Source of the DNA: Clavulina sp. PMI_390
Taxonomy: Eukaryota; Basidiomycota; Agaricomycetes; Cantharellales; Hydnaceae
Reading direction: 5' to 3'
Length of the DNA: 64,000 nucleotides
NCBI GenBank assembly: GCA_015039315.1
Contig: WIDE01000075.1
Coordinates: 99,047-163,046, forward strand
Position 1 is the stretch's first letter; the number at the start of each line of letters is the position of its first letter. Made by a program: the position numbers and the translations under genes. Shown here piece by piece: positions 11,774 through 60,563 of the stretch. A model generated the notes under the pieces. It made no database searches and was not told the DNA's origin. It was given only the letters and a program-made list of their open reading frames with translations.

Positions 11774-14030
11774 TTACGGGTATATCCCTCCCCCCACGCG
11801 GGCATGGCGCATGGAGGGTCCACTGACGTTATCGCTCGCGAATTCCGCAACGGTCACACCTGTCATCCATACATCACGGTTGCCCATCGAGTGCGCCCGA
11901 ATGGAGAAAACGAGGATGAGGAACCAGTAGTTCATGAGGACGATCCAGGTAATGAAGGAAAATGACTTCGCAGTCTGGTATTGTGGGCAGAACGAGGTGA
12001 ACATGTTGATGCAGTCAGCTGAACTGTGACCCCAGGCTGATATACCAAACTTAGTGGCATATATAGAATTGGCTGTCGGGCGTTTCATGACCAAGATTAC
12101 ACCAAATTGAACGGCCAAATTGCATCTAGTCAACAGAAGAGCACGCCGATTGGGGAAGTTTTACTGACTTAACCACAAGATCCAGAGGACGCCAATCCAG
12201 CCCAGCTCGACAACCACAAAGGAGGTCGGCGCACCTTTGTGAATGAAATCAATCACGAGCCTGTCGTTTTGATGAGATGAAGGGGAGGAAAAACAAGGTG
12301 GTCGGATGGAGATTCGTAATTGATTGTGTCCCAGAATTGAAGCGGATGGCAAATCAGCGATGTGACATGGAACATCGCCAAGTGGTGAAAATACACAGTA
12401 GATCACCCGCCAAGCAAAGCGTCGGCACCAATTGCATTTCCGATCGAAAATCCAGTCAACCAACGTACGTATGCGTTGGTTCAGGTGATCGATCCCAGCA
12501 AATAGCGGCCACACACAGCGAGAGGGGAAAACGTAGTATCAGTGGTAGATGCATTGAAGCGGATATAGATTGTGAACATAAGACTGAGAAGATCTGATGC
12601 CCACATTAGGAGAAGAGAAGTAATCGTGATGGTAGTGGTGGCAAGACCCAGCTTGGCAAATAGTGGCACAACTGAATGGATACCTTCATCAGGGAAGTTG
12701 AACCAATGGGAAAATTCCTGAGCAAAGTGAGCATCGATCCCTAGAGGGTATGATGAATGATGAATAGGGGCAACAGAACGAGAGATAGATCAAAGTAACT
12801 TGCCAAGCACTATGAGGGAAAAGAGGATCGCAATGCCTAGAAAATCGCTCGGATTGGGACCGCCTCGCAAAATGAAAGGAAAGTATCTCACTAAAGACGA
12901 AGAAACGAGCATGAGTGGGGGTGCTCGCCATATCGGACGCGTATTAATGATGGATTGGTCGGCCGGCCAGACACTGAGTCGGAACAAGCTGGAGGGAAGG
13001 GGGGAAGGAGGGCAAGAGTTAGAAGTGGCAAGGCAGTTCCCCCTACCTCCTCAAGGGATCCTTGTTTGGATGCTGTGCTTTGGGTCTAGCTTCAGCCGCC
13101 GTAAATTGAGGAGCACTCATGTTGAAGTTAGTGAATTGACTTGAGCTATGAACTGAATAGGTATAGAGTCGAGTGTGTTGGTTTACTATCCCCTGGCGTT
13201 GATAAGCCACCAAAAAGGATACAATGGAGTAACAGATGCTACCAGAATGATGGTACGTCTGGCACATCAACAGAGGAGATCCACAGACATGGTTGCATTG
13301 CTGCATATACGCCAACGCTCGCTGATATTCTTCAACACGTATCTCACGAATGGAAGAACTAACGGGCCCGGTCAATTCAATTATTCTGATCATTGATGCA
13401 AGGAAAGGATGTTCAAGCAGGTACACGGATTGATGTCCATAGACCATCAGGTTCATGCTTTGCCTGTTTGACAGCACACTATACTTGATGTCCACGCGTG
13501 ATCCGTTTACCAGCCATGAGCAACAAATGATCGTTTCGAATCACATGAATAGAGGTTCAAGAGACACCGCAGCGAGCACTGTCACGACTTCGAGGTCCAG
13601 AGCCTTAGAAAAGTGAACGATCACAGGCACCTGGCTCCGGACATGTGAGCACTTTGGTTCGAGAGGAGATCAAGGAGAATACGGATGGACGAGGATTCAT
13701 ATTGGCGCAAGGATAATCTTAGCAGAAGTAGGTGCATTTGTGATGCTCGCCGACGATGGTGGTCGGAAGGAGGCGTTCTCCACTATGATTGACACGTGAT
13801 CAATTTTCGCCCCAAGGACGTTGAACCGTGCTGGTTTGGGGTGTCTCCAAGATAGTCGTCCCCTCTCCAGCCATCTTTCGCAGCATTGGCTTATTACCAA
13901 AACTAATGCTCATCTGTGACAAACATGACAAGCTCTAACTTCAGCTGACACAACCAACATGACGTACAAAATGCAACGACCCACCAACCTCAGTTCCTCT
14001 CTTTAACCGAACACCTGGCTTGCTGCTTCT
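11120..14030. repeat. 2.9 kb segmental duplication, unit 2
   Basis: Second copy of the segment at 8190-11095, in direct orientation and immediately adjacent. It carries membrane-protein copy 5 and both its flanks. Confidence 0.7.
11774..12931 (-). CDS. MARVEL-like four-TM membrane protein, copy 5
   Basis: Minus-strand paralogue, sister of copy 4 by position and sequence. It starts MASTPTHARFFVF at 12931. TM2 reads KLGLATTTITITSLLLM near 12650. After a ~370 nt gap come LVIDFIHKGAPTSFVVVELG and TM3 (WIGVLWILWL) near 12250-12160. The last exon has DCINMFTSFCPQYQTAKSF, TM4 (SFITWIVLMNYWFLILVFSI) and the tail ending RHARVGGGIYP, almost the same tail as copy 4. The paired Cys before TM4 are kept in all five copies. 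Whether it is expressed cannot be told from sequence; its frames and splice signals are intact where they can be read. Confidence 0.6.
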
Positions 14031-34233: not shown

Positions 34234-35929
34234 ATGTCCCGCGAAGATGAAAACCTGCCGAAATCTAGATTAGAACTCCCTCTCGTTTTCCCCCTGGAAA
34301 TCTTTCATTCGATTGCCCTGCGGCTTGACGTAGTGTCCATCATACGCCTGAGCGTGGTGAGCCTCTTTGCCATCATGTCTCTAAGAACACGGAACTATAA
34401 CCTAAACCACTTCTGCTCGATTCTGCCCACTAGACTTGTAAGTTTCTACGAGAATATATCCAGACATCCCTGGCACTATGGCGCGAGATCAGTGATCGAG
34501 AGGCTCGCGCGGCTGCTCTGGCACCTTTCTCTGTTCCTCCTACGCTTTCCACCGAAGAATTGATCGCATTCGCTACGCGCCCGTACCGCATGATACCGGC
34601 ACTATCGCCAACGCTTGACAGCGCAACGCCAGCTCCTGTGGAACCCTTGGTCGATGCCAAGGAGTTTTGCATCGCCCTTCAGAACAACGAATTTTATGAT
34701 TCTCACGATGCACCACATGGCTCGCAATACCTGCTTCCTGGGGGACGATGGATGCTCGGATCACAGCTAGTTTACAGTGGGCACGCCCGTCTCATGTGTT
34801 GGGATATCGCGAGCGCCGTCAATGAAGTCCCGTGCGATCCTGCCGCTTATATCGATTCACAACATCGAGCTCTTGACTTTCCGGAATACTTCTCTATGTG
34901 CATGCAGCTTGATCCTGAAAGCCAATCTGTGACATGCTTGCTAGGTTATGTGGGGCGTCTGGAGAGGTGAGGCAGTCCGCCAACAAGATTACGCTTTGAA
35001 GCAGTCGCCTAACGACGACGATTGAAGCGGTCTGCAAGTCACCTTCTTGGAGATCATATCTCTCACTTGGCCTTCGGACGCCACTCCGCAGTTTCGATTT
35101 GTCACTGAGACTGCACACTCCAACGATGAGCATAGCCCAATCTCAACATGTAAGCTAGATGGTGATATGGTGTGTTCATCACTGGACAATCATCTCATTA
35201 CGTTATGGGACTGGAAGCGGTCGTCGTATAATGTTATTGAACTGGTGAGATCTTTAAATTTGAATCCATCAGCACAGAGCTGATCGTCGTATTTGTGCGC
35301 CTTTCCAGAACTCGGAATACATAGCTCTCAGAGAACCTTATATTTTTTCCGACTGGGAGGGTACCTCGAGCATCCGAATTACCAAATGCACCTACTCAGA
35401 GAACGAGTCCAGGTATTTGTTTGATACCACCATCATCCCTTCTCCCCAGTATCCCAACTTCGATAATCCCACGACCTTCTCGCTCACGCCAATTGACTCG
35501 GATGCTTGGGTCCGTCGTCCTCAGGGCAACGAGAGTCCTTTATGTCTCCTGGGAGGCTCGTTCGCCAACCACCATGTCATCCACTGGACCCCTGGCTCCG
35601 AGTCGTGGGATGAGCCATTACTCCCTTGGTTGGTCCGAACTGGACGGAGCACGCGCGCAGAGAATGGACTCTTCATCATCCCTGCGTTTGTTAGGACTCA
35701 ACTAGCAGAGCCTCTTGCATTTGATGCGGTCTTATATCCTTGGTCCATCTCGGATGGGCCTCCCAAATCTCGGTCCTTCAGAGCACCTACCTCTGCACCC
35801 GCAGCAAGCAACCTCTCCCAACATACGATTACAATCCATCGTTGCATATATTCTGGGACGTTTCTGGTGTACGAATGGCGGGCCATGAATCCGGCAACCC
35901 TTTGTTACCGCCACTTTCGATATCTCTGA
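34234..35929 (+). CDS. F-box protein, tandem copy 1
   Basis: Putative substrate adaptor of an SCF ubiquitin ligase. Exon 1 from 34234 (MSREDENLPKSRLELP...) carries the F-box core LPLVFPLEIFHSIALRLDVV then SIIRLS, cut by an intron as in the neighbour. The next exon starts at an AG before ACTTGTAAG and reads TCKFLREYIQTSLALWREIS, completing the F-box. The ~430-residue remainder has β-rich repeats (GSQYLLPGGRWMLGS, GHARLMCWDIASA, DGDMVCSSLDNHLITLWDWK), which suggests a propeller-like substrate domain of the type seen in many basidiomycete F-box proteins. The protein ends RAMNPATLCYRHFRYL at 35929. Four or five exons; target unknown. Confidence 0.7.
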
Positions 35930-36322: not shown

Positions 36323-38055
36323 ATGCCGAAGTATCACGTCGATAAAATCCCAAACAGGGATCACTCGGGCCTCCTTCCCTCTCTCCCCTTGGAAATCTAT
36401 CACGCCATTGCTCTCCAGCTCGATGTCGTGTCTATCATCCGTTTGAGTATGGTGAGCTTCTCTGCTACCAGAACCTGAGAATCACGCGAGCTTCCATGAA
36501 CGAAATAATCCGTATGTGTGAAAACGTAATTCTATGTATCTAACAATCCTCTTTCAAATCAAATAGACTTGCAAATCTCTCAGCAACTACATTCAAACAT
36601 CTCTTGGGCTATGGCGCAGGATCAGTGATCGAGAGGCTCAAAAAGCTGCCTTGGCACCTTTTTCTGTTCTCGCCACGCTCTCCGTAAAAGACATGATGGT
36701 ATTTGCGACTCGCCCATATCGTATGATGTCATTGTCGTCTTTGGCTCTCAACAGCGGGGCAACCCCTGTTGGGACGTTAATTACGGCAAAGGAACCTTCT
36801 CTTCTTCTGAGAAATGACGAGCTGCTCGACCGCCAAAGTGCAGAGCACGGCTCTCACTACCTCCTTCCAGGTGGAAGATGGATGGTTGGGGTACAGTCAA
36901 AGTCGCGTGGATACCCCCGTCTTATGTGTTGGGATGTCGCGAGCGCCGTCAGCGATGTACCCTGTGATCCCGTTGCTTCCGTAAGCTCACAACATCGAGC
37001 TCTCGGATTTCCCGAGGAGTTTTCTCTGTCCACACAGTTTGATCCTGAGAGGCAGTCGGTAACGTGCTTGCTCGCATATATCGGACAACTCGAGGGGTGA
37101 GGTGAACTGCACGGTATATCCGTTTACGATACCTTTCTGTCTGACGCGCAGTATATGAGCAGCGGGGAAGTCACTTTTCTTGAGATCATATCGCTTACTT
37201 GGCCACCAGACACCTCTCCACAGTTCCATTTCGTTACCGAGACCGCACACCCGAATGAGGAGCTTACTCCAATCTCAACTTGCCAGCTAGACGGTGACAT
37301 GGTTTGCTCGCTACTTGAAAGCGGTCAAATCACCTTGTGGGACTGGAAACGTTCATCGTATGATGTGCTTGACGTGGTAAGCTTATAGCCACGTAACAAT
37401 TCCGTCCCAGGTTGGCAATCTTACGCAAGTAATGCTGGAGAAATCCGATTTCATAGCTTTAAGAGCTCCCTTTATCTTTTCCGATTTGGAAGGAACTACT
37501 AGCACCCGGGTCACGAAATGCATTTACTCTGAGAGCGAGGCACGGTATTGCTTTGATGCCATCGTCGTTCCTCCCCCGTATTATCCAGATTTTGATTTCC
37601 CCACCGGGTTTGTGCTTTCGCCGGTTAGCTCGGATGCTTGGATTCGTCGTGCCCCGAATGATGAACGTTTTGTTTACCTTGTTGGAGGAGCCTATGCTAA
37701 CCATCGCATACTCCGCTGGCAAACCGGCTCAGCGTCATGGGAACAGCCACTACTTCCTTGGCAGGTTCAAACTGGATGGAGTACACAAGCTGATTCTGGT
37801 CTCCTAATTGTATCTCAATACATCCGGACTCGCCCGCGAGAGCCATTTGCCTTCGATGTAAAGTTGTACCCATGGTCAATCTCAGATGGGCCTCCGCGGT
37901 CGCGGTCCTTCGTAGCATCGGAACCGGCAACGAAAAGCCCAGTACAGCTTGTGATTAATATCCGTGGCTGCATGTATTCTGGAACCTTTCTTGTTTATGA
38001 GTTCCAGTCTACGGACCCTGCGATATCGCAGTATCGTCACTTTAGGTACCTCTAG
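36323..38055 (+). CDS. F-box protein, tandem copy 2
   Basis: Tandem duplicate of the gene at 34234 with the same exon order. It starts MPKYHVDKIPNRDHSGLLPS, then F-box core LPLEIYHAIALQLDVVSIIR. After the intron comes TCKSLSNYIQTSLGLWRRIS, then DREAQKAALAPFSV and FATRPYRMM. β-repeat segments GSHYLLPGGRWMVGV, GYPRLMCWDVASA and DGDMVCSLLESGQITLWDWK correspond one-to-one to copy 1. It ends TDPAISQYRHFRYL. The pair shares most core motifs but differs strongly in the segments between them, as expected if the F-box and scaffold are kept while the recognition surface diverges. That is inference. Confidence 0.7.
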
Positions 38056-40388: not shown

Positions 40389-42883
40389 TTAAAGTGGCCA
40401 CGAGCCGGAGGCAAAAGGGTTAGGATAGGTAGCCAGAGCCTTAGGGTTGGGAGTTATATGATGATGAAATATTGGGGAGAGAATGAATGGCTTAATGTGA
40501 GCATGGGGGGTCACAAACAAGCTCACAAGCATTTTTGAGGGCAGTGGGACCGCAGCTCTTTTGGGCGGTTGGCTGGATAGCTCGTCATTCTTGAATGACC
40601 AGCCACCATCTTCGAGCACGGTTGCAGTGTAGTGCCCAGCATTATCGACTCTGTGAAAGCTGATCACGCTGATAGGGTAGCCCGCCCACTAGTTGAGATT
40701 CCTCTTGTGAGTCATTGCGACAAAATGGGAGCGGGACAAGATACTTACGACGAGCTCGGGAGAGTTGTTGCGTGCGGGTATGCGTAGCCTCACCGTCTTG
40801 TCAATATTGATCGATTTGACGTTGGTTGCCTTGTTCTTCTCGGCGCGAGGGATGAAAACCGCAAGATGATCCCCTATCTCGACAACGCGAGAAGGATTCA
40901 CATCCGCGCCATGGTCGCAGCGGTCTTGGCCATATAGCGTTGGAGCCTTGATCTCCTGCTGCTCCCAGTGGTCCAGGAGCTCTTGAGTCGAGCTTCCGTT
41001 CGAGGGCTCGATGGCAATGCATGCCGCATATGCCTGACGGACATACGGACATTTGCAGTCGGCACACATCTCATCTGACACGACGGAAATCGACGGTCCT
41101 AGCTCCCCGTCCAGACGTCGCGTTAGCCACTCTAGAAATGCAGCGACGTCGTCCTGGCCGCCAAACCTCCAGCCCTCACGTTCGCAGGCCGCTTTGAAGG
41201 TGGCGGGGTCGACGACGGCGTCTGGATTGTCACCCATAGCTTGTATAATATCTTTGAGCGCGCAGGGGACCCGGCGCAGGTCACAGGGACCATCATGGAC
41301 GTGATAGACTGGCTGGTATTTCAGAAAAACGGTCTGCAAGGCGGCCAGCGAGTAGCAGTCGTTGAGCATGTTGTGGAGCCCTGACGATCGCGCATGGGTG
41401 ATGTGATCGTCGGCGGTCAGAGGGAGAGATGGGGGAGGCTGTGGACGAGGCTGAGATGCGGGAGGTGGCTTGGATGATTGAGGTGGAGCTGATCGGGAGG
41501 TGGAGGTTGAAGGACGGGCAACTTTGCTGGCGCCACAAGTAGTGTTGGAGGAGGGACGAGGGCGAGATGAAGGTGGAATAGAAGGAGTGGGACGCTTTGT
41601 AGCAGTAGTATTAGTAGTAGCAGTAGTTGGAGGTGATATACGTGCTCGCTTTGGGGAGGGCGGCACGGTCGGAGCTGGTCGAGAGCTCGCGACGGATTTC
41701 TGCCCACTCGTTGGCTTTGGGACAGGGCGAGAGGGGGACAAGGAGCAACAAGGAGCCGGGGGAGTGGTCTTTGAGGTGGAAGACTTGGTTGGACCTCGAG
41801 GTAGATCCACAATCTTTCGAGGAGGGAGAGTGGTAACGAGTGGCTGCGATGATTTTGCTGGTGCGGCAGGTGAAATGGGATTAGGTTTGGGACGAGCCGT
41901 GGGTTGAGAAGTGCACTCTTTTGGTTGTGTCGAGACTGCATCCTCGTCTGGGGGAGGTGAGGATGATGAGGGAATGACGATGGGCTGTCGCGCCGACCCC
42001 TTGGGACCTGTGGCAAGCCACGCGGTAAGGATAGTTTTGGGCTTTTCAGCCGGACGATTTGGAGCCTTGGATTTTGATGAATTTTTCGATTTTGTATTAG
42101 TGGGAGCAGCTTGTGTGGCCGTCGTCGAGGTTTTCTTTGTAGCATTTGGGTTAGTAGAAGCCGTGGATGATGACGTGAGCGTCGCAGTTTCAATATGTGC
42201 GACCTTTCGTGAGGTCGTAGAGGCGGTGGTAGCATTAGAGTCGGTAGCAAGAAGTGGTTTAGCAGGGGTCAAGACATGAGAGCGTGCTGCGAAGAAAGAA
42301 AGAAAAAAGCGTGTATTGTTGAGCTACCAGGACAGTAAAAACTCGAAAGAAAGGGGACTCACAATTATTCTGATTTTCTACAAGCGAGTTGGGCTCTTTT
42401 GGGCCATTAGGGACGTGCAAGATAGGAAGTGTCTCAGACGAGGGGACAGACGCGTCGGCATTGGTGCGGGCGCGTTTTTGCGATCGTAGTGGCTCAGAGG
42501 AGTCTAAAAGAGACAAAAACGAGATTGGTGAGGTGATACGCCGAAGAAAGACGCATAGAATGTACCTTTAGTGAGAGAAGACGCAGCCGACGGCCGTTTC
42601 AGCGACGACTGATTGATCAAGATAGGTGAATCGTCAGAGAAAAGATAACGGGGCCATAGAGGACATCCATAGACACGTACTGGGGGCTGAGATCGGGCCT
42701 GGACCGTGTTGTTGGAGGAGTGCGACAGGTGACGAGCATGGGATCGAGCGCCGCTGCGATCTTGACGTGAATCTGGTTGGTGGGATCAACAAACGGTTAG
42801 AACATGATGAAGGTGAATGCACAAGGGTACTCACTAGCAGATTTAGACGAGCGTGAAGGAGAGAACGTGTTTTGAGGAGACAT
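40389..42883 (-). CDS. USP-like deubiquitinase, stand-alone (unit A)
   Basis: Predicted cysteine peptidase of the ubiquitin-specific protease (C19) fold, ~720 aa. Six exons. N-terminal exons: MSPQNTFSPSRSSKSA, NSRQDRSGARSHARHL..., SSLKRPSAASSLTK and DSSEPLRSQKRARTNAD (basic, NLS-like). A long Ser/Thr/Pro/Lys-rich disordered region of ~270 residues follows. The catalytic domain has Cys box GLHNMLNDCYSLAALQ (Asn at Cys-2, as in USPs), GGQDDVAAFLEWLTRRLDGE (the USP 'Q-box' region), a partial CxDCKC finger, and the His box across an intron: GYPISVISFHRVDNAGHY then TATVLEDGGWSFKND. All three catalytic positions are kept. Unlike units B and C it stops ~60 residues after the His box, with an unrelated tail. 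Ubiquitin or ubiquitin-like specificity is unproven. Confidence 0.72.
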
Positions 42884-45625: not shown

Positions 45626-48600
45626 CTACCCTCGAGGGTTGCGACACCAGTTCACCACCCGAACCACCTGGCCCACCAATGACCGCACCTTCCCACCCTC
45701 TTCAAACTCCTTGGCCAACACGGCGTCCGAAAAGAAACAGGCATGGATGTATGCCTTTTTCACCATTAGAGGAAGCTCCCAGAAAGAGCGATACTCTTGG
45801 CCAACCTTGCCTTCATGACGCGCGTCACCATGGGTTCGCAGTCCGTCACTCAGGGCCTCTACAGCCGCAGCATCACCAACCAGCCTTGGGTAGCCATCAG
45901 GGAAGAACAGTCGACGTTGATGTTGATGCTTCTGGGGCGTATACACTCGCTGCCCTTTTCCTTGACGTGAGGTTGCTATTTTCTTTTGGGGACAACGCTT
46001 GCAGTTGACCTCCCAGATCTGCGCATCCGGCTGCAGTCCCAGAAGAATAGGACTGAGCTTTCGATAAATTCCCGGATCGCATATATCCCGGAAGATAAGA
46101 TCCACCTGGCGAAGTGGACGGTGGATGCACGATGCAAGATTGAGAATCGCCTGCAGGATGCCAGACTCTGGGGAGCGGTTGGGGTCATTGTGAACAATGA
46201 CATAGGAGTCATTCCATGCAGCCTCGCATTCAGGAGTCATTGGTGGGATGACAATCGAGCTGGGAAGACACGCAGCCGAAGGCAGCTGAACAAGTCGCTC
46301 TCGTTCAAGAAACCCGTCCGGGAGCGAATGACCAAGAGGGCTTGATAGCACCTCATATGGAGTGAGCACGCGGACAGATTGGAGGTGGCCCTCGCGGGCG
46401 AGCTCCGCCACCGGTACAAACTTGGTAGGATCGGACGACAACGGACAGCGATGGACACTGGCACCGGTGATGATGGGCGTGTCTCCACACTGACACCTTG
46501 ATATCTCAGGCACAGAGTCTCGAGGCTGGTTCTTGTCAAAGTTGGCGTCGACGAGCTTCTTGACGGCCTGAGGGGCGGACTGGGTGTTTCTCCAGTTGTC
46601 TTCATTGAATGAAAGAGCGCCATCGGGGCGGAGGCGACGCATGTGGGCCTCGCCGGTCTTGGCAGACTGCCTCTTGATTGCCTTGCGACCCTCTGGGGTG
46701 TCCTTGCGCTTGTCCAGCGCAACATGCCCGTTCTTGCCGTTCACCGACTGAACAACAAGTTTGCCCTCCGCAAGTGCCATAAGCCAGCCAGGCAGATCAG
46801 AGGGATTAGCAAGCAGCTCTGGGATCGGGGTTGGAAGCCTAAACTTCCGAGCGCGTTCTTGCTTTGCCATTTGGTCGTCGACCCAGCTTTGGCGCTCCTC
46901 AGAATGAGGGGAGTGGGGAGCAGTCACGCCATTCTTGATCACTAGTAGCACGAAGATAAATAAAAATAGGCCGCGATTGAAAATATATCTCTTGATACGC
47001 ACATTTCTGCATCGTCTCAACCATCCGTTCAGAGCGAGCTTGGTTGTCTTGTTGACCAGTTGCCGTCAGCGATCGAAGAGTCCCCACAGAGGTGTGGTAT
47101 TTACGAATCTGTAATGGTGCTATGAGAAGCATGAAAAACTAATAGCAGAATGTGAATCGCACCTTATCCTTGACCCACCGAATCTCGGTGTTAACAGCGG
47201 CGCAATCTCTGTCGACCTCGTCCATGAGCGCAACAAGGTCATCTACCGTGGGATTTGAGAGCTTGGACGCGGCATGGTTAAGCTTGAGGCACTTCAGCTC
47301 AATGAGGTATCCAAGCTCTTCAACCTCGTTCAAGATTCCAGGGTCATGCTTTGAGCCGCCCCAGTGAGGCCGAACGATGCCGACTGAGAACTCTTCCTCG
47401 AGATACTCCACAATCATCATATTCCCCGCCTTCTCCAAAAAGTCAGGGGACTCGAAATGATCCAGGTCATATTCGGCAATCAATCGCTCATACCATGAGG
47501 TTTTGGGGAGCGAATTTCCAGCACTCTGGTAGTTGGTCTTAGTGAGGCCGGATTCGCTGAATAACCGGAGCCGTTCAGGGGTTCTAGGTAGGCGCCAGAG
47601 CTCGCGTTCGGAGAGGTTTGTCACCTGTAAAGGGAAAAAAAATTATTCCAAAGGTCTTGAGCAACATAGCACTCTCTTGAAACGTACCAAGGAACCTAGT
47701 AGTAAAATCACAATAGGTTTGGCAACACACAGCTTCAAAACGACTCCTAGAACCTCAAGGTGGAATTTTTTGTGAGGTCCTCTGAGCGGAAACATGTCGG
47801 TAAAGGCCCAGCCATTGCAAGCGAATTCTTCTGTGAGCCGCTCAACTGAGGTCTCCACATCCCAGCGAAGAGACAGCTGTCTAGCTCGAGCAGAATGCTC
47901 TCGTCCCATTCTGAAGGCCATCCAATAGAATTGACGTCAGACTTGATGAACATGGAAACGAGATGAAGATGCATACGTAGGGCCAGGGCCTGCATAAGGG
48001 CCTGTGATGGTCGATTCACCCTTCAGTTCCTCTCCTGTGCGATCCTTGAAGATCCCGAATTGCACGACCCTCCCATATTCATTCATACCGACGCCCGTGA
48101 CACTAGCCATGATGGCTGCTTTTGCGTGATCGGGAGGGTCAAACCCTCCGGCTTCAAAATTAGCGTCAAACTCAATCTCCTGAATAGCCTTCAGTTGGGC
48201 CCGGACTTGGGCCAACTGGGGATCAGAACGAGCATCAGTCCTTGGGGGAGGCCGAAAAGGGAAGCGTGTTTGCATCTAGCAAAGGTGGCGGAAGGAATTG
48301 TAAGTGTATGGATGTTACCAAAGGGCAATAAAATACATACCTCGGCTTCGGCTGCTAGCGCTTGCGGAGACATGGCGTCGAGGTCAAATTTAGACGATGG
48401 TAGACCTCCATCAGACGAGTTGAGAACAAAACAGCCACCGCATAGGATAAGAAACCGTTCAGCGATGAGAGAGTGTCGGCGACGTTGGGTGAGGGTTCCG
48501 GCTGATGCATCCCCGATGAATCGAGTGAACTCGGTCCATTCGTATACTTCGCACTTTGTGTCTGCGAGCAAGCCGAGCATATGTCCTGTTCGACTAGGGA

Positions 48601-51600
48601 GTTTTCCAGACAACGCCGAGGCGTGATCTTGGTCTTGGCGTAGCTGCGGGGTTGAACTCGTAGTTTCACCAATATAATGGATCCTGACAATTGCCTCTGG
48701 GTCGAGCTTCTCGAGGCGCTTGAGCCAGTTATAAGCAAAAGAGATGTCGGCAGGGTGGTCTCGGGCATATTGCTTGAACTTCTGTATTGCCTCGCGCACT
48801 TTGCACTCCCAGGAACGATGATAAAACTTGTGCTGATCCAGCAATGTAGCGCGATCCCCGGTCACTCTCCTGAGAGCGTTTGGGTGATTCAAAGCGTTCC
48901 ACATGGTGGGATCGCGAACCCACGCGTCCACTGCCTCGCACGTTGGGTCGTGTTCCACAGCTGTGGTGAGAGGATCGAGCAATGGCTCGATTGCACGCTG
49001 CCTATGCACACAGATCCACTCCAGGCGAACTTGTAGTCGCTCATCTATCGGGAGATGCTCCGTTTCCCGGAGATATTTCTGGAAGTGTTTTTCGATCTTG
49101 TGATCACACTTTGCCAGGAGAAGAAGGTAAGCGAAAGCCTCCTCTCGCTTTCGAGCTGTGGCCAATGGGCCAGTGATAGCCCGATCTTCACGACGCTTGA
49201 TATTCTCCGGTTTACTAGAGTATTCAACGGTGGCGTCATGTGCTGGGGAGGGTGCAGTGGAAGGTGTGTCGGGCCCATCATTCTCTGATCCATCTAACAG
49301 TGGCTTGAAGTCAAAATCAAGATTGGGATCGAAATTGCCCTCGTCCTCGTCCTCATCAGAGTCGAGGGTCGTGAATGCATAGTCCCCGGGAAGAAAGGCA
49401 AGCGGGTTGACATCAGCAAACTTGCGGAACACGACGAGAGTGGCAGTGGAGGATATTGAATGATGATGGATTGGAGAGTGGGGAAGGCGTGGATCGGGAG
49501 AGTCGGGCAGTCGACTGGACAGCGCGTCATTCTTGAACGACCAGCCACCATCTTCGAGCACGGTTGCAGTGTAGTGCCCAGCATTATCGACTCCGTGAAA
49601 GCTGATCACGCTGATAGGATAGCCCGTCCACTAGTTGAGATGCCTCTTGTGAGCCATTGCAACAAAATGGGAAGTGAGACAAGATACTTACGACGAGCTC
49701 GGGAGAGTCATTGTGTGGGGGTATGCGTAGCCTCACCATCTTGTCAATATTGATCGACTTGACGTTGGTCACCCTGTCCTTCTCAGCACGGGGGATGAAA
49801 ACGGCAAGATGATCCCCAATCTCGACAACGCGAGAAGGAGTCACATCCGCACCATGGTCGCAGCGGTCTTGGCCATATAGCGTTGGAGCCTTGATCTCCT
49901 GCTGATCCCAGTGGTTCAGGAGCTCCTGAGTCGAGCTCCCATTCGAGGGCTCGATGGCAATGCATGCCGCATATGCCTGACGCACATACGGACATTTGCA
50001 GTTGGCACACATCGCATCTGACACGACAGAAATTGAGGGTCCTAGCTCGCCGTTGAGGCGCCGCGTTAGCCACTCTAGGAACGCAGCGACGTTGTCCTGG
50101 CCGCCAAACCTCCAGCCCTCACGTTCGCAGGCCGCTTTGAAGGTGGCGGGGTCGATGACGGCGTCTGGATTGTCACCCATAGCTTGTATAATATCTTTGA
50201 GCGCGCAGGAAACACGGCGGAGGTCGCAGGGGCCGTCATGAACGTGATAGACTGGTTGGTATTTCAGAAAAACAGTCTGCAAGGCGGCCAGCGAGTAGCA
50301 GTCGTTGAGCGTGTTGTGGAGCCCTGACGATCGTGCATGGGTGACGTGATCATTGGTGGGCAGAGGTAGAGCTAGGGGAGGCTGTGGACGCGGCTGAGAT
50401 GTGGGAGGTGGTTTGGATGGCTGGGACGGAGCTGATCGGGAGGTGGAGGTTGAAGGATGGGCGACTTTGGCGCCGCGAGTAGTATCGGAGGAAGGGCGAG
50501 GACGAGATGAAGACTGCGAGGGTGGAATAGGAGGGGAATATTTTATGGGAGCAGCAGTAGTTGGAGCTGATATACGTGCTCGCTTCGGGGAGGGCTGCAC
50601 GGGGGTCGGAGCCTGTCGAGAGCTCGCGACAGATTTCTGCCCACCAGTCACATTCGGGAGAGGGTGAGAGGGGGCCGAGGAGCGACGGGGAGTAGGGGGA
50701 GTGGTCTTTGAGGTGGAAGACTTGGTTGGACCTCGGGGTGGATCCACGGTCTTTCGAGGAGGGGGAGAGGGACTAGTGAGTGGCTGTGATGATTTTGATT
50801 GGGCGGCAGGCAGGGTAGGATTAGATTTGGGACCAGCCGCGGACCCAGACGGTCTTGCGGGAGCCTGGGACTGAGAAGCGCGCTCGTTTACTTGCGTCGA
50901 GGCTGGATCGATGTCCGGGGGAGGTGGGGACGATGAAGGAATGACGATGGGCTGTCCCGCCGATCCCTTGGGACCTTTGGCAAGCCACGCAGTCAGGATG
51001 GTCTTAGGCTTTTCAGCCCGGGGAGTTGAAGCATTGGATTTTGATGAATTTTTCGATTTTGTATTAGTGGTAGCAGCTCGTGTGGCCGTCGTCGAGGTTT
51101 TCTTTGTAGCATTTTGATTCGTGGAAGCCGTGGATGATGACGTGAGCGTCGCAGTTTCAAGATGTGCGACCTTTCGTGAGGTCGTAGAGGTGGTGGTAGC
51201 ATTGGAGTTGGTAGCAAGAAGTGGTTTAGCAGGGGGCAAGACATGAGAGCGTGCTGCAGAGGAAAAGTCAATCTTGTCAAGCTACCGCGATGGTAAAAAC
51301 TCGAAAGAAAGGGGACTCACAATTATTCTGATTTTTTAGAGGCGAACTGGGTTCTTTTGGGCCATTAGGGACGTGCAAGATAGGAAGTGTCTCAGACGAG
51401 GGGACAGACGCGCCGGCATTGGTGCGGGCGCGTTTTTGCGATCGAAATAAGTCGGATGAGTCTAGAATACATTAAGAGTGGAGTTTAGGGCGTCTTGTAG
51501 TCCAAAAAGGGCGCATAAAACGTACCATGAGTAAGGGACGACGCGGTCGACAGTCGTTTCAGCGAGGCCTGGTCAATCGGGACGGGTAAACCATCAGAAA

Positions 51601-51838
51601 CAAGACAACAGAGCTATAGAGGACATCTGTAAGCACGTACTGAGGGTTGAGATTGGGCCGGGACGGCATTGTTTGAGAGGTGCAAGGGCTGGCCAACATG
51701 TGATCGAGCGCCGCTGCGATCTTGACGTGAATCTAGTTGACGAGTTCAACACATAAGCGGGTGCAACTGAGAGCATGAGCGCGGGTACTCACTAGTAGTT
51801 TTAGAAGAGCGTGAAGGAGAGGATGTGTTTCGAGACAT
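45626..51838 (-). CDS. USP-GIY-YIG-like fusion protein (unit B)
   Basis: One spliced gene of at least eleven exons predicts ~1.9 kaa. Domains in order: disordered S/T/P/K-rich N-terminus with basic QKRARTNAD motif; USP-like domain (Cys box GLHNTLNDCYSLAALQ, His box FHGVDNAGHYTATV then GGWSFKND); acidic linker (TTLDSDEDEDEGNFDP); ~200-residue helical segment; GIY-YIG-like domain with RIHYIGETTSS, a following Arg (QLRQDQ), Glu in LIAERFLIL and Asn in FVLNSSDGG; a variable middle (~400 residues, including NEYGRVVQFGIFKDRTGEEL and WYERLIAEYDLDHFES); and a C-terminal ~390 residues with SRCQCGDTPIITGASVHRC and CKRCPQKK Cys clusters. Exon phases from USP to stop are consistent (for example ELV|WTGYPISVIS and AAEAE|MQTRF). 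The classical first 'GIY' strand is not evident, so nuclease identity is tentative. No transposase or integrase motif seen. Confidence 0.62.
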
Positions 51839-52819
51839 GAGGAGGGAAAAAACGGATCGGAGAGGGTTTACGATTTTTTGGGAGAATGAAGGAAATAGTT
51901 TGAGAATGAGGGAGAAAAGTCGAGATTATGGTGCGGAATGGACATATATGCCCAGCATACGCGCCCCGTGGCCGTCGATCGGGCGAGCGTGACGGAGAAC
52001 GCGTCTGCGGGGACGAGGAGGTGAAGGGGGAAAAGTCGATCGAGCGCGAACCTCTTAGTGTTGCTGACCGTGGGAATGTTCCGCCCTCCATTCATATCTA
52101 CCCCGGGATTCGCAACAAAACGCTCTTGCCATCCTGGCATCAGGCAAACCAGCAAGAGACTTTGGGAAAATGTTGCCAGAGGGACATGAATAGATGTGGG
52201 AAGGGTTGGGGAGAGTGGAATGCCACGAGAGGGAACACGAGCTGGGGCGCGATTGTCAAGTACACACACATGTCTCCCCAGAAACGAGACTCGCGCGTTG
52301 ATAATAAATGGCGAGAGAGGCACACTTGGACGAGGAAGTGAGGAAGGAGGAAGGCTATGAGGGGTTGGGCGGATGGTCTGGGCGAATTGTGATGTGCAGA
52401 TCGGCGACGAAGGCTGTCAAGCGCAATGCATTGTGATTCCATATGAGGACGCAAAGCCTATTCAGACGTGTTTTTTTTTTTTTTACTTACCATTATCGCT
52501 CCCTTTCAACCACCACCATGACCACCACGACTGCGAATATCGCCACCCTCGTGTGATGCGGCCTCCACTGATTGAGAATCATCCTCATACTTGCGTTGCC
52601 GCACTTGATCAGACACTCTTGAGCGCTGAGGACAGAGAATGTTGGCCGCTGGCGGCGAGTCGTCAAGGGCTCGAAAGCTGAGACGAGGAAAAGTTTCTGA
52701 TCATAAATACCCGATTAGCTCGCCTCGCAGTCTACTGAACGAAAAGAAATGGCCCAGGTCTGAATAAGAAATGAGAGATGATCACCGACGAAATCTAAAT
52801 GAACACTCACCTGCTAGCA
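51839..52819. other. Upstream region of unit B gene
   Basis: Similar to units A and C up to about 52060, then only in patches (ATGCATTG block near 52425). It contains a T/A homopolymer at 52469-52485. No gene supported. Confidence 0.45.
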
Positions 52820-53628
52820 CTAACTCGATGTCTCCCAGATAAATGATTCTTCCTGAATGCGCCGACGAACATGAGCTTGCATTGCTGAACGAAAACTGAG
52901 AGCAAACCTGTCGACGCTCACTCACTGAATGGAGCACTTTGGGGCGCCCGCTCAGGACCTCTCGGCCACGCAATATCAAGCCTGTCTTGCCCTTGGGGTG
53001 TCGAGAGGTTTCTCAAACTCGGACTTCCCTGTGCGCTGCTGTAAGAACAAGGTCAGGGAGCAAGTATTGGTGACAACAAGCTACTTACATGATGTCTTCT
53101 CGTGAGAGATCAATACATGGGCTCGCGCTAATAGCTGGGCGAGAGTGCGAGGCACTTTGTGCGTTTGGCTTTCGCCGAGGGGTTGTAGTGGGCTGAAGGT
53201 TCAGAAGGCGTTGTCCTCGTTCGCCCCTACAAAAGAGTCGTCGCCAAATGATGAGGCTTATTTTGAATGAGGTAAAAGTTTCCATGTTAACCTACAGTCC
53301 TGCAGGCTCCTGATATAGATTCGCATCTTCCCAGTTGGCGAAACTATCCGAGCGATGATATGGTGCGGGGTCTCAGTGGGAGGTGTCAGCCAGCGATGGG
53401 CAGCGACGGCGTTTGATGATGACGGCGTTGATGTGAGAGAAGCATGGGAGTGCAGTGAGAATGACACTGGTAACGAGTTTGATACGTCGGCGGTTTGTGC
53501 GAGAGCAGATTTCGTTGGTGCGCGATGTTTGCGAGTGTTTCCTGCTTCGAGTCCGAGCCGCGGGCTTCCACGGTGTTTCTCGCTGGAGACTCGCAGCCGT
53601 AATTTATCTAATCCTCTGGTCTAGATAG
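52820..53628 (-). CDS. Unrecognised protein in unit B, 5' end not found
   Basis: An in-phase exon chain on the minus strand begins after an AG at ~53629. It reads GLDKLRLRVSSEKHRGSPRL, then APTKSALAQTADVSNSLPVS, TETPHHIIARIVSPTGKMRI and YIRSLQDCR. After an intron come GERGQRLLNLQPTTTPRRKP, NAQSASHSRPAISASP and CIDLSREDI. After another intron come SAQGSPSLRNLSTPQGQDRL and IAWPRGPERAPQSAPF, then a short last exon MQAHVRRRIQEESFIWETSS and a stop at 52820. All introns have GT-AG ends and keep the frame. No domain recognised; it is hydrophilic and S/T/P-rich. It sits where units A and C have the possible small gene, but no residue similarity is evident. The start codon must be in a further 5' exon that I could not identify. 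Confidence 0.42.
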
Positions 53629-54377
53629 CTTGTGATATCGTGCAATGGATCCTCCCGCTCAAATGAGAATCACTCAATCAACGCTGACTGGATCGATCTA
53701 GGACAGCTTGACTGACCCCATGCTGTCTTTGCCACCTCGCCTCTGAGCCTTGCCCCCCTCTTTCACTACTCCAAAATGCAAGGTTACATATATCTGGGCT
53801 CGATTGTTAATCTTCTGTTGTGTTGCTGTTATAATATATTGGCTCTATTGATTGTTCTGTCTCTCCGTCTCGTACATGTTCGCTTCTGAGCCACTCCTAC
53901 TCGGATTTTGTCACAAATAAGCTCCTATTCTTTCCGAGGGTCTTTAACAGTGATATATCATCGCAACACATCGAGATCGTGCGCTAATGTCATGGTCTGA
54001 GCCGCCGATTGCAGTCAGAGTGATTGTCTCCTCGTACCCAACACCGTGCGCTAACACCAACACCCTGGCAGCTCAGACGCCTAATGCCACGTCTTTTAGG
54101 GATCAGCGGTGATATATCGAGCACCTCCTGTGATGTCGATATAGGTTTGGAGCCGTCATCCGGGGATGGAGGCGTAAAAAATCGGGAAAAATCCCAAAAA
54201 TTCTGCTTTTTGGCGGAAAATGATCAGAAACGCAGGATCTAGCGTATTCCGGCAAACCTACTCTGACGAGTTTCTCATATGATTTTGTGCTGGGCATTGC
54301 AGAGAAGCACTAGAAAGCATGGGTGCATATTTCATTCTTGATGGAATTATTGGTGTGAGCAGAAGACAAAAAAGTAT
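53629..54377. other. Right end of unit B and junction with unit C
   Basis: Contains the unit B hairpin (54113-54143, 8-bp stem TATATCGA / TCGATATA) and A/T motif (54196-54216), then ~110 bp of spacer before unit C begins at ~54364. Confidence 0.5.
54113..54143. repeat. Unit B terminal hairpin
   Basis: Perfect 8-bp stem with a 15-nt loop. The stem sequence differs from that of units A and C, but the position relative to the A/T motif is comparable. Confidence 0.5.
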
Positions 54378-57300
54378 CTACAAACGAGGTTTGCGACGCC
54401 AGTTCACCACCCGAACCACCTGGCCCACCAATGACCGCACCTTCCCACCCTCTTCAAACTCCTTGGCCAACACAGCATCTGAAAAGAAACAGGCATGGAT
54501 ATATGCCTTCTTGACCATTAGAGGAAGCTCCCAGAAAGAGCGATACTCTTGGCCAACCTTGCCTTCATGACGCGCGTCACCATGGGTTCGCAGTCCGTCA
54601 CTCAGGGCCTCTACAGCCGCAGCATCACCGATAAGCCTTGGGTAGCCATCAGGGAAGAACGGTCGACGTTGATGTTGATGCTTCTGGGGCGTATACACTC
54701 GCTGCCCTTTTCCTTGACGTGAGGTTGCTATTTTCTTTTGGGGACAACGCTTGCAGTTGACCTCCCAGATTTGCGCATCCGGCTGCAGTCCCAGAAGAAT
54801 AGGACAGAGCTTTCGATAAATTCCCGGATCGCATATATCCCGGAAGATAAGATCCACCTGGCGAAGTGGACGGTGGATGCACGATGCAAGATTGAGAATC
54901 GCCTGCAGGATGCCAGACTCTGGGGAGCGGTTGGGGTCATTGTGAACAATGACATAGGAGTCATTCCATGCAGCCTCGCATTCAGGAGTCATTGGTGGGA
55001 TGACAATCGAGCTGGGAAGACACGCAGCCGAAGGCAACTGAACAAGTCGCTCTCGTTCAAGAAACCCGTCTGGGAGCGAATGACCAAGAGGGCTTGATAG
55101 CACCTCATATGGAGTGAGCACGCGGACAGATTGGAGGTGGCCCTCGCGGGCGAGCTCCGCCACCGGTACAAACTTGGAAGGGTCAGACGACAACGGACAG
55201 CGATGGACACTAGCACCGGTGATGATGGGTGCGTCTCCACACTGACATCTTGCAACCTCGGGCACAGAGTCTCGAGGCTGGTTCTTGCCAAAGTTAGCGT
55301 CAACGAGCTTCTTGACGGCCTGAGGGGCAGACTGGGTGTTTCTCCAGTTGTCTTCATTGAATGAAAGAGCGCCATCGGGGCGGAGGCGACGCATGTGGGC
55401 CTTGCCGGTCTTGGCAGCCTGCCTCTTGATTGCCTCGCGACCCTCTGGGGTGTCCTTGCGCTTGTCCAGCGCAACATGCCCATTCTTGCCGTTCAGCGAC
55501 CGAATCACAAGCTTACCCTCCGCAAGTGCCACGAGCCAGTCAGAGAGCAAGGAGGGATCAGCAAGCAGATTGGGAAATGGGGCTGGAAGCCTAAACTTCA
55601 AAGCGAGGTCTCGTTCTGCCATCATCTTGTTAACCCAGATTGCGCGTTCCTCAGAGTGAGCGGGGTGGAGTGCACGAAGTCCAAAGTGATTGGCTAGAGT
55701 GATAGACGTGAGATTAGACATAGCTGATGAGAGAAATAGGCCTCGCGTACCAATCTGAACCCCTCGCGACATTTGAATTGAGAGTCGCTCGTGTTGTTCA
55801 GGGCTCAACTGGTTTCGTGCACTGTCTGTTGCACGAAGAGACTGGATGTTGAGGAAAAAGAGGAAGATCTGCTCTATCCGTTAGCTAAGAAATTCACAAT
55901 AAAGGGATAGAAGGACTTACCGCGTCTTTGACAACCTTTAGCAGCGCTGGGAGACCATAGCTCTCTAGCACCTCATCCATTGCATTCATGTTTGCCACCT
56001 GTGCCGCCTCTCCACGATCACGAAAGTCGGCGTACTCTCCTGCCACAACTCGATACCCCAAATGTGTGATGTAGAGCAGCTCCTCAGCGAGCTTGGTGAT
56101 TGAAGGGTCATATTTTCCCCACCCTGGTTCGGAGCTTGGCCAGCAAGTGCGGAGTTTGTTTTGGAAGGACCGGCAAATGAAAAGCGTCCCAACACGGTCA
56201 AGAAATGGGATGCGCTCCCAATGATCAAATGGAACCCCAGCCAGTAGATCCCACCAGCTAGTGCCTGGAAGCGAAGCAAGGACCAGAAGGAGGTTGGGTA
56301 ATGTGTAATCCGCAGCAAGGGCTCTGACTGCCGGAAGATTGGGAAGATCGAATGCCCCTGCCGCCGCTAGAGCCGCCATCTGCCAAAGCAAAACGAATTA
56401 GAGCTGCTCTCAATTTGCAATGTAATGGTTAACATACCGATCCCCCCCAAGCACGAAGCAGCCCTGGATCAGCAACCTCAATTTTCATCGCGAGGCTGAT
56501 GACATGAGCATGGTACAAGTTTTTGGGACGAGAGTGAGGGAAGATATTGAAATATGCCCAGTCATTTCTGCTGATGAATGGGATTTGATCCTCGATGGGT
56601 AATGAGCTCCAGGTGAAGCGAGACGGCAATTGATTTGCTCGCTCGGACTGATCATGCCAAACACTGAAACAGGACAATAAGCGAATGAAATATTGAGAAC
56701 AGCCGAGAGAAAGCAGCGACTTACGTAGGGCCTGGGCCAGCCTGATTGTCAAACATGCTTCCTTCCCGAAGCTCCTGCTGAGTGATATCCTTGTACAGGC
56801 CAATTGTTGCAACATTACCATGGGTAGAGAGCCCAAAGCTGGTATGTCCGGCTTTGATGGTTTCGAGGACTTCGGGGGCGATTGGCTTCCCACCAGTGAG
56901 TAGATGATACTGATAATCGACGTCGAGAATTTGCCGGATACGCCTTCGCCGTTCGGCAAGGTCAGGACTTTCCGCATCATCAACAACGGCGGGGGAGTAC
57001 ACCGGAGCATTGCTCTGAACCTAAATGAATTGTACATAAGTGGATGCGAGGCGGAAGAAAAAAGGGATCTGCACACCTGGGTTTCAGCATCGAGGACTTG
57101 CGGTGCTAGTGCGTTCAGGTCTAGCTTGGACGACTTGAACCCGCCATCAGCACTGTTGAGGCTATAGGGGCCACAGAGTGTGATCAACAGGTTCTCGGCA
57201 AGCTTGGATTGCTTGACAATCTCGTCCGGTGTTTGCCCTTCATTGACGAAGGGGAAACCTTGGATCTCATACACCTGGATCTCATACGTGTCGCCCACAA

Positions 57301-60300
57301 TTTGAAGCATATTTCCCAGCCGAGTAGGAAGGTTCCCCGCAGCGACGCTGGCAAGATCGTCAAGGTGACGTTTGAATACATCCCTCGTTGACGTCTCGCC
57401 TATGTAGGGGAATCCAACTTCCTCATCGGGATCGAGGTCGAGCAAAGCCTTTTTGATGACAGATGCCCACGGGCGGTCAGCGCGATGCTTGCCCATGTAG
57501 GTGTCCAGCACTCCCAGCGCCTCTCTGACGGTCATAATCAGCCGGCGCAGATAACACGGATGGGGATGAGAGGAGAGAGCCTTCCTGAGCGCTTTCCGCA
57601 GCGTTGTAAGATGATCGACGGCTTTGAGGGTGAGTATATTGCAACTCATAGCGTCGAGAAGATCTAAAACAGCGGGGTCCTTGACAGCTTCGGAGAGGAC
57701 AGGTTTGAGCTCCTCAAGCTTGTCGCGCTCCAATAAACATTCTCGTCCCAGCAGCTCTGTGACACGCTCAGCGGCGGGTCGATCGGCAAGACTGTCCACA
57801 AATTCCTTGCGCTCGTCATCAATCTCGCAAGCAAGAGCCGCAATTGTAGCAATATATTCAAGTTTCTCGCTTGCCTTCTTTTCTCTCTCTACCTCAAGCT
57901 CTGGTAGAGCATCACGTCTATCCTCGCGCCGTTTGACATTCACAGGATTGGTGGAGCGTGAATAGTCTTGGCCTCGCGCGATGAAAGTGGCGTCAACCAC
58001 CCCAGCAGCCAAAAGGTCAAGTAAAGACCCTTCAGCGAGTTCATCAGCCTCTGATACGTCTGGAGATGGTTCAAAGCCAAGGTCGTTCTCGTCCTCATCC
58101 TCGCTCTTGGCAGAGTCGAGGGTCGTGAATACATAGCCCCGAGAGATAAAGGCAAGCGGGTTGACATTAGCAAACTTGCGGAACACGACGAGAGTGGCAG
58201 TGGAGGATATTGAATGATGATGGATTGGAGAGTGGGGAAGGCGCGGATCGGGAGAGCCGGGCAGTCGACTGGACAGCGCGTCATTCTTGAACGACCAGCC
58301 ACCATCTTCGAACACGGTTGCAGTGTAGTGCCCAGCATTATCGACTCCGTGAAAGCTGATCACGCTGATAGGATAGCCCGTCCACTAGTTGAGATGTCTC
58401 TTGTGAGTTATTGCGACAAAATGGGAAGTGGGACAAGATACTTACGACGAGCTCGGGAGAGTCATTGCGTGGGGGTATGCGCAGCCTCACCGTCTTGTCA
58501 ATACTGATCGACTTGACGTTGGTCACCCTGTCCTTCTCAGCACGGGGGATGAAAACGGCAAGATGATCCCCAATCTCGACAACGCGAGAAGGATTCACAT
58601 CCGCGCCATGGTCGCAGCGGTCTTGGCTATATAACGTAGTAGCCTTGATCTCCTGCTGCTCCCAGTGGTCCAGGAGCTCTTGAGTCGAGCTTCCGTTCGA
58701 GGGCTCAATGGCAATGCATGCGGCGTATGCCTGACGGACATACGGACATTTGCAGTCGGCACACATCTCATCTGACACGACGGAAATCGACGGTCCTAGC
58801 TCCCCGTCCAGACGTCGCGTTAGCCACTCTAGAAATGCAGCGACGTCGTCCTGGCCGCCAAACCTCCAGCCCTCACGTTCGCAGGCCGCTTTGAAGGTGG
58901 CGGGGTCAACGACGGCGTCTGGATTGTCACCCATAGCTTGCATAATATCTTTGAGCGCACAGGAAACACGGCGGAGGTCGCAGGGGCCGTCATGAACGTG
59001 ATAGACTGGCTGGTATTCCAGAAATACGGTTTGCAGGGCGGCTAGAGAGTAGCAGTCGTTGAGCGTGTTGTGGAGCCCTGACGATCGTGCATGGGTGACG
59101 TGATCGTTGGCGGTCAAAGGCAGAGATGGGGGAGGCTGTGGACGCGGCTGAGATGTGGGAGGTGGTTTGGATGGCTGGGATGGGGCTGATCGGGAGGTGG
59201 AGTTTGAAGAACTGGCGATTTTGCCAGCACCACGAGTAGTGTCGGAGGAAGGGCGAGGGCGAGATGAGGATTGTGAAAGCGGAATAGAAGGAGTGGGACG
59301 GTTTGTAGCAGTAGCAGTAGTGGGAGGTGATATACGTGCTCGCTTTGGGGAGGGCGGCACAGGGGTCGGAGCTGGTCGAGAGCTCGCGACAGATTTCTGC
59401 CCACCAGTCACATTCGTGAGAGGGGTCGAGGGGCGACGAGGAGAATGGGGAGTGGTCTTTGAGGTGGAAGACTTGGGTGAGCTCCGAGGTAGATCCACAA
59501 TCTTTCGAGGAGGGAGAGTGGTAACGAGTGGCTGCGATGATTTTGTTGGGGCGGCAGGTGAGGTGGGATTAAGTTCGGGACGAGCCGCGGGTTGAGAAGT
59601 GCGCTCTTTTGGATGCGTTGAGGCTGCATCGGTGTCTGGAGGAGGTGGGGACGATGAAGGAATGACAATGGGCTGTCGCGCCGATCCCTTGGGACCTGTG
59701 GCAAGCCACGCAGTAAGGATAGTTTTGCGCTTTTCAGCCGGGGGTTTTGGAGCATTGGGTTTTGATGAATTCTTTGATTTTGTATTAGTGGGAGCAGCTT
59801 GTGTGGCCGTCGTCGAGGTTTTCTTCGTAGCATTTGGGTTCATGGAAGCCGTGGATGATGACGTGAGCGTCGCAGTTTCAAGATGTGCGACCTTTCGTGA
59901 GGTCGAAGAGGTGGTGGTAGCAGTGGAGTCGGCAGCAAGAAGTGGTTTAGCAGGAGGCAAGACATGAGAGCGTGCTGCGAAGGAAAAAGTAAATCTTGTC
60001 AAGCTACCGCAATAGTAAAAACTTGAAAGAAAGGAGACTCACAATTATTCTGATTTTCTAAAGGCAAAATGGGTTCTTTCGGGACATTAGGGACGTGCAA
60101 GATAGAAAGTGTCTCAGACGAGGGGACAGACGCGTCAGCATTGGTGCGGGCGCGTTTTTGCGATCGTAGTGGCTCAGAGGAGTCTAAAAGAGACAAGAAC
60201 GAGATTGGGGAGGTGATACGCCGAAGAAAGACGCATAGAATATACCTTGAGAGAGGGAAGACGCGGCCGAGGGCCGTTTCAGCGACGACTGATTGATCAA

Positions 60301-60563
60301 GACAGACGAATCATCAGAGAAAAGATAACGGGGCCATAGAGGACATCCATAGACACGTACTGAGGGCTGAGATCGGGCCTGGACCGCGTTGTTGGAGGAG
60401 TGCGACAACTGACCAACATGGGATCGAGCGCCGCTGCGATCTTGACGCGAATCTAGTTGGTGGGATCACCAAACGGTTAGAACATGATGAAGGTGAATGC
60501 ACAAGGGTACTCACTAGCAGATTTAGACGAGCGTGAGGGAGAGGACGTGTTTTGAGGAGGCAT
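54378..60563 (-). CDS. USP-GIY-YIG-like fusion protein (unit C)
   Basis: Second full-length fusion gene, ~1.85 kaa predicted, with the same architecture as unit B. USP domain: GLHNTLNDCYSLAALQ, GGQDDVAAFLEWLTRRLDGE, FHGVDNAGHYTATV then FEDGGWSFKND. GIY-YIG-like part: GFPYIGETSTR, Arg-His in VFKRHLDDL, Glu in KLAENLLITL and Asn in YSLNSADGG. These are the same key positions as unit B although the domains differ at most other residues. The middle (LSTHGNVATIGLYKDITQQE, SRNDWAYFNIFPHSRPKNLY, GTSWWDLLAGVPFDHWERIP) has little similarity to unit B. The last ~390 residues (from about LNGKNGHVALDKRKDTPEG) are almost identical. No internal stop or frameshift was noticed in the long exons. The gene lies next to the tRNA gene, upstream end towards it. 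Confidence 0.62.

Follow-up and report, generated by a model that had tools for sequence, protein, structure and literature searches.

Two neighbouring genes in the fungus Clavulina sp. PMI_390 almost certainly encode, each within one polypeptide, a USP-type deubiquitinase joined to a divergent GIY-YIG-like domain (here the YIG domain), as judged from their open reading frames. The genes, B and C, lie in the window analysed here, a stretch of 64,000 nucleotides that forms the last 64 kb of the 163,046-base contig WIDE01000075.1 (C275; the assembly comprises 39.4 Mb in 301 contigs). Coordinates are window positions, and all features of the array that holds B and C are on the minus strand. Paralogs elsewhere in the genome are named by contig. 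On balance, we favour the reading that B and C are intact and belong to a family of fungal nuclear genes in which a deubiquitinase of USP type is joined to a divergent nuclease of GIY-YIG fold, working by the mechanism proposed below.

Gene structure and domain fusion

Exon structures of B and C were assembled by hand with GT-AG introns. Each gene has 11 exons and 10 introns, the introns in corresponding places, and no internal stop codon. Gene B (45626..51838) encodes 1859 amino acids (aa), identical over the full length to NCBI DL93DRAFT_2086090. Gene C (54378..60563) encodes 1858 aa; its NCBI record, DL93DRAFT_1788360 (1706 aa), equals our protein minus the first 152 aa. The B record and the C hand model share the earlier start, and the public start of C looks too late.

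The USP and YIG parts meet inside an exon. The exon carrying the USP His box (GHYTATV...GGWSFKND) stays open into the segment YIGET...LNS[AS]DGG in B (49630..48341), in C (58384..57077) and in six dispersed paralogs (C35, C15, C113, C202, C204 and C280), that is, at every one of the eight loci with both parts. A reading made earlier from the sequence only had proposed this in-frame run and a single polypeptide, and both proposals hold. It had also taken LNS[AS]DGG as terminal, which is incorrect: exons 7–11 (about 800 aa) come after that motif. Separate transcripts for the USP and YIG parts were considered and rejected as the likelier reading, given the open junction exon in 8/8 fused loci and the single NCBI protein for B.

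The same reading described two tandem genes. B and C are indeed both fused, at the coordinates that it gave and on the minus strand, but the array has three copies (A, B and C) spaced 8.7–8.95 kb apart, and A has no YIG domain. Copy A (approximately 40392..42883; annotated as a 720-aa protein) holds the N-terminal region, the USP Cys half and the start of the His exon. Its N-terminal region and most of its USP domain match B and C at 82–93% in longer DNA pieces. Homology breaks off inside the USP His exon, soon after the Asn-Asp pair, and the USP end and nuclease core are missing along with the YIG domain.

USP-type domain

B and C are likely USP-type deubiquitinases, to judge by their catalytic boxes. 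The USP domain of B (49418..50327, limits approximate) has its Cys codon TGC at 50300-50298, His codon CAC at 49576-49574 and Asn-Asp at 49531-49526, with an intron (49691-49631) inside the domain. In C (58172..59081, limits approximate) the corresponding positions are 59054-59052, 58330-58328 and 58285-58280, with the intron at 58445-58385. The boxes read NDCY (Cys), GHYTATV (His) and WSFKND (Asn-Asp); the sequence-only reading had likewise called all three present. By eye, the Cys box, His box and Asp/Asn are present in all 11 USP copies (A, B, C, C35, C15, C90, C113, two in C202, C204 and C280).

Pfam UCH matches fall on both sides of the 23.9-bit cut-off. Exon pieces of B and C score 15.9 and 20.1 bits, and the C record scores 22.8 bits over profile positions 2–233 of 254. 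Among the paralogs, the cut-off is exceeded by C113 (42.3 bits) and by each of the two domains of C202 (28.8 and 26.6 bits); the USP exon of C280 gave no UCH match. A PDB search with the C113 domain found USP46, USP12 and USP15 chains as best matches (best E 0.0015). The genes resemble peptidase family C19 in their Cys and His boxes, Asn/Asp and UCH matches; they differ in that B and C are divergent (15.9–22.8 bits) and joined to a nuclease-like domain, and in the doubled USP domain of C202.

GIY-YIG-like domain

The YIG domain of B (48404..48829, from alignment A3 and an AlphaFold model) carries its candidate catalytic residues at 48823-48821 (strand-1 Tyr), 48676-48674 (YIG Tyr), 48640-48638 (Arg), 48460-48458 (Glu) and 48421-48419 (Asn). 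In C (57140..57559) they are at 57553-57551, 57406-57404, 57370-57368, 57196-57194 and 57157-57155. Strand-2 YIG Tyr, Arg, Glu and Asn occur in this order in 9/9 aligned copies, and the strand-1 Tyr, as xYxR, in all eight rows that cover the position. Of 184 columns (letters in at least eight of nine rows), 12 are invariant, and they include the Tyr, Arg, Glu and Asn that the sequence-only reading had named; a rough hypergeometric estimate puts the chance of this at 1.1e-5. Identity of the domain between subfamilies is about 20%. Alignments A1–A3 leave out C236 (weak match, E 0.09) and include C247 as a short open piece with a stop codon before it.

AlphaFold predicts a GIY-YIG-like fold around the YIG motif of B with a predicted local distance difference test (pLDDT) score of 83.4 and a predicted template modelling (pTM) score of 0.81. 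Structure comparison returns GIY-YIG matches (the homing and restriction nucleases I-TevI, T4 EndoII and Hpy188I were compared) at low Z. The claim that the segment is GIY-YIG-like is supported by the invariant residues and, at low Z, by structure comparison, and we consider the predicted fold likely correct. That the domain is an active nuclease is somewhat more likely than not.

The domain departs from the classical pattern. Classical GIY-YIG domains have a literal GIY followed after about 10 residues by YIG. Here there is no GIY tripeptide, the two tyrosines are 48 residues apart in B, and the predicted fold has two helices inserted between the strands that carry them; in both predicted models the strand-1 Tyr precedes these helices. 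The tail N-x3-GG also occurs in T4 SegA, SegF and I-TevII. No family member (0/9) matches the PF01541 profile, and the sole PF01541 match in a scan of the Clavulina genome is at another locus, which may be SLX1. Since the literal GIY and a PF01541 match are both absent, we name the domain a divergent GIY-YIG-like lineage and do not assign it to PF01541.

Other searches with the domain were negative. Neither PHROGs profiles nor a search of PDB sequences with this region gave a useful match, and Foldseek against PDB gave no significant match. Foldseek against BFVD gave nothing at E<=0.001, with four proteins named GIY-YIG among the best 50 of 108 weak rows. A pattern search of viral contigs found 10 stretches that fit, none a relative, and hhalign to three T4 proteins placed the YIG domain below threshold.

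Variable core and conserved arms

B and C are mosaics in which a divergent core lies between similar arms. In 20-codon steps, nucleotide identity drops from 97–100% to 28–65% in the core; the change is sharp near aa 700–720 and more gradual near aa 1420–1500. The core of B (approximately 46887..49387, about aa 710 to 1440) comprises the linker, helical region, YIG domain and exons 7–10; its counterpart in C is at approximately 55636..58141. Identity is 93–97% in the USP domain and 92% in the C-terminal arm, against 28% in the helical linker, 42% in the YIG domain, 30% in exon 7 and 28% in exon 9.

Synonymous divergence (dS) is 0.24 in the N-terminal region, 0.23 and 0.02 in the two USP halves and 0.11 in the C-terminal arm; in the core it ranges from 1.1 to saturated. 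Within the arms, the ratio of nonsynonymous to synonymous divergence comes to 0.16 for the USP Cys half, 0.26 for the C-terminal arm and 0.48 for the N-terminal region; the USP His part, with four changes, gives no usable ratio. Because synonymous sites jump as well, selection at the protein level cannot by itself account for the variable core.

Trees of five members also conflict. In the arm trees B pairs with C (100/99). In the core trees the partner of C is C15 (100/100) and that of B is C35 (87/92, not starred). C247 contributes only the C-terminal part to the arm tree, and the trees omit exons 7 and 8. Alternative groupings, chosen after the identities of the B–C segments were known, are rejected: for the arms, B+C35 (p 6.5e-43) and C+C15 (p 3e-4); for the core, B+C (p 5e-6). 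By these trees and identities, the nuclease core and its flanking arms have different ancestries. Either cores were swapped between copies, or the tandem copies are old and gene conversion has evened out their arms.

The conserved C-terminal arm spans 45626..46827 in B (about aa 1460–1859) and 54378..55579 in C, where 420 aligned aa underlie the 92% identity. It has no Pfam match. The B arm contains a Cys/His cluster, CQCGDTP...HRCP. A conserved cluster of the form CxC or CxxC...HxC or HCC is seen in the arms of B (about 46500-46430), C (about 55250-55180), C35, C15 and C247, and might bind zinc.

Paralogs and zinc-finger relatives

Searches of the genome found five YIG-domain places with B as query and seven with C113 (two common to both, one at E 0.09), eight USP places and six C-terminal arm places. 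One of the arm places is a second, partial stretch on C15 (12262-12654, minus strand), which codes for the end of the arm beside a complete one. Merged, these give at least 12 loci that carry a USP part, a YIG part or both: A, B, C, C35, C15, C247, C90, C113, C202, C204, C280 and C236. Such counts are lower bounds; the searches score best candidates only. Eight of the 12 have both parts. A and C90 have USP without a YIG part, C90 with one in-frame stop between the boxes. C247 and C236 have a YIG part and no USP was found; in C247 a stop codon lies shortly before the YIG part. In C202, two USP domains stand in tandem ahead of the YIG domain (L020:7857-5867, minus strand). Searches of protein databases gave two, three and one matches, all from the window contig and including the query record. 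They also missed the known dispersed paralogs and so say nothing about other fungi.

Four loci form a sister subfamily: C113 (L019), C202 (L020), C204 (L036) and C280 (L037). In their models, the YIG domain is followed by exons similar in size to those of B and C, then by a forkhead-like region and by C2H2 motifs (12 in C113, 14 in C202, 9 in C204 and 10 in C280), mostly one per exon. Exon joins in C202 rebuild finger linkers such as TGERPFKC. Pfam covered pieces of C113 and C280 only and found zf-C2H2 in both (E 4.3e-32 and 2.7e-23); Forkhead is listed for C113 (E 1.4e-4; 22.3 bits, below the cut-off of 27) and not for C280. These models were predicted from DNA alone, with splice scores relaxed and finger motifs favoured by a bonus, and those of C202 and C204 have doubtful stretches. 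As modelled, they support the fingers belonging to the same genes as the USP and YIG parts.

At C236 (L039), several similar finger-like motifs of the form CxxC...HYxxxH lie downstream of the YIG-like part (4289-3669, minus strand). The window also holds other, older duplications of about 72–85% identity (34431-35234 with 36564-37366, and 8191-9238 with 11124-12264).

Alternative explanations

The YIG domain could have kept its fold while serving only to bind DNA or protein, without cleavage. The working enzyme would then be the USP, deubiquitinating chromatin and, in one subfamily, guided there by zinc fingers. Such a role would fit the far greater divergence of the B–C core than of the arms, the failure of every nuclease profile tried to recognise the domain and the existence of USP copies without it (A and C90). 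It fits poorly with columns that never vary despite about 20% identity and that match what one expects of the active site in GIY-YIG nucleases, or with C236 and C247, which retain the YIG part where no USP was found. We regard it as unlikely, though a serious competitor.

About equally doubtful is the view that the genes are part of a selfish mobile element, or derive from one by capture, with a homing-type or transposon nuclease that the USP shields against degradation. Homing endonucleases often have GIY-YIG domains. Such domains are common also in Penelope-like elements (PMC6431247), and the spread of the family over 10 contigs and the recombination between core and arms point the same way. 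Against it, the best identity among the genome matches outside the array is 53% for YIG, 43% for USP, 48% within the C113 group and 44% for the C-terminal arm. Near-identical dispersed copies, expected of a recently active element, are absent among these best matches, and with identities of 43–53% there is no sign of recent mobility. The 10 introns in each of B and C, and the similar downstream exon sizes in the sister subfamily, also count against an element. No inverted repeats of >=60 nt were found within 40000-64000. At E<=0.01, Pfam finds only UCH and no reverse transcriptase in the C record, and no transposase or reverse transcriptase in the C record or in eight of the 12 other long open reading frames listed for the rest of the window (the remaining four overlap a scanned frame or copy A).

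It is improbable that an unrelated fold resembles GIY-YIG here by chance. The low Z and the lack of any significant Foldseek or profile match are what it has in its favour; a chance motif alone was rejected on the invariance over nine copies and the identity of the fold matches. Two adjacent genes or exon read-through giving a merely apparent fusion would be most surprising: the fusion is read here from genomic sequence, but the junction lies inside one open exon at all eight loci with both parts and NCBI records B as one 1859-aa protein.

Proposed mechanism and significance

The favoured reading, a deubiquitinase joined to a GIY-YIG-fold nuclease, suggests the following mechanism. The protein would bind DNA in the nucleus, where the YIG core would nick or cut it. 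DNA-binding modules would place the nuclease: the C2H2 arrays and forkhead-like domain in one subfamily, and in B and C perhaps the C-terminal arm with its Cys/His cluster. The USP would strip ubiquitin off its own protein or nearby chromatin and so prevent degradation or block, following the 'guardian' logic proposed for CifB (see below). Recombination between core and arms would maintain core diversity, as in proteins of genetic conflict.

That the genes act in intragenomic conflict, whether they oppose or serve mobile or selfish DNA, is a tentative suggestion; they may be a genome defence, a self-driving system or a means of self-recognition. The sequence-only reading had offered a selfish element or a host factor, and either may apply. 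A fuller version is more speculative still and, on present evidence, unlikely. In it, a nuclear conflict system has a deubiquitinase that guards the GIY-YIG core, forkhead-like and C2H2 modules that set its targets in one subfamily, cores exchanged between arms in tandem arrays and truncated USP-only copies as possible antidotes or decoys. It would be a eukaryotic counterpart of the CndB toxins of incompatibility or an arsenal for genome defence.

If the domain is active, these genes are host-encoded enzymes with both DNA cutting and ubiquitin removal, the relatives that seem to bear finger arrays are a natural analogue of engineered zinc-finger nucleases, and an additional GIY-YIG lineage escapes profile searches. 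The mosaic core offers a testable case of eukaryotic nuclear genes using domain exchange like bacterial conflict toxins, and the guardian idea becomes open to testing outside Wolbachia.

Comparison with known systems

The sequence-only reading knew of no described system with this pairing, and we likewise found no description of a USP and a GIY-YIG domain in one protein, or of a natural zinc-finger GIY-YIG nuclease in fungi, in literature whose coverage mostly excludes subscription journals. The YIG domain resembles those of I-TevI, T4 EndoII and Hpy188I in predicted fold (low Z) and in its candidate Tyr, Tyr, Arg, Glu and Asn; it differs in having no literal GIY, in its two inserted helices and in falling below every sequence-profile threshold tried.

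SLX1 is a eukaryotic GIY-YIG resolvase with a RING finger and acts in repair. It too is a host GIY-YIG nuclease joined to a domain of ubiquitin-pathway type, but that domain is a RING in SLX1 and a deubiquitinase in the Clavulina genes. Penelope-like elements and engineered zinc-finger nucleases combine zinc fingers with a nuclease domain, as the sister subfamily appears to. The Clavulina genes differ in that no reverse transcriptase was found in the C record and in carrying multi-finger arrays in intron-rich genes with USP.

A further parallel is offered by CifB proteins of the CndB type, from Wolbachia and relatives, which act in cytoplasmic incompatibility. Most type V CifB proteins are predicted to have a nuclease and a deubiquitylase in one polypeptide, nuclease and deubiquitylase trees are reported to disagree for type I CifB, and a protective 'guardian' role is proposed for the deubiquitylase (PMC11342252, PMC12687446). 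CifB is bacterial, with PD-(D/E)XK nucleases, Ulp1- or OTU-type deubiquitylases and a CifA partner; the Clavulina genes are fungal and nuclear, with USP and GIY-YIG-like domains and, in one subfamily, zinc-finger arrays. Pfam found no PD-(D/E)XK, Ulp1 or OTU domain in the C record (E<=0.01). Given these other domain families and the CifA partner, the likeness is one of how the proteins may work and not of membership, and its common ground is a probable nuclease and a likely deubiquitinase in one polypeptide with conflicting trees for the parts.
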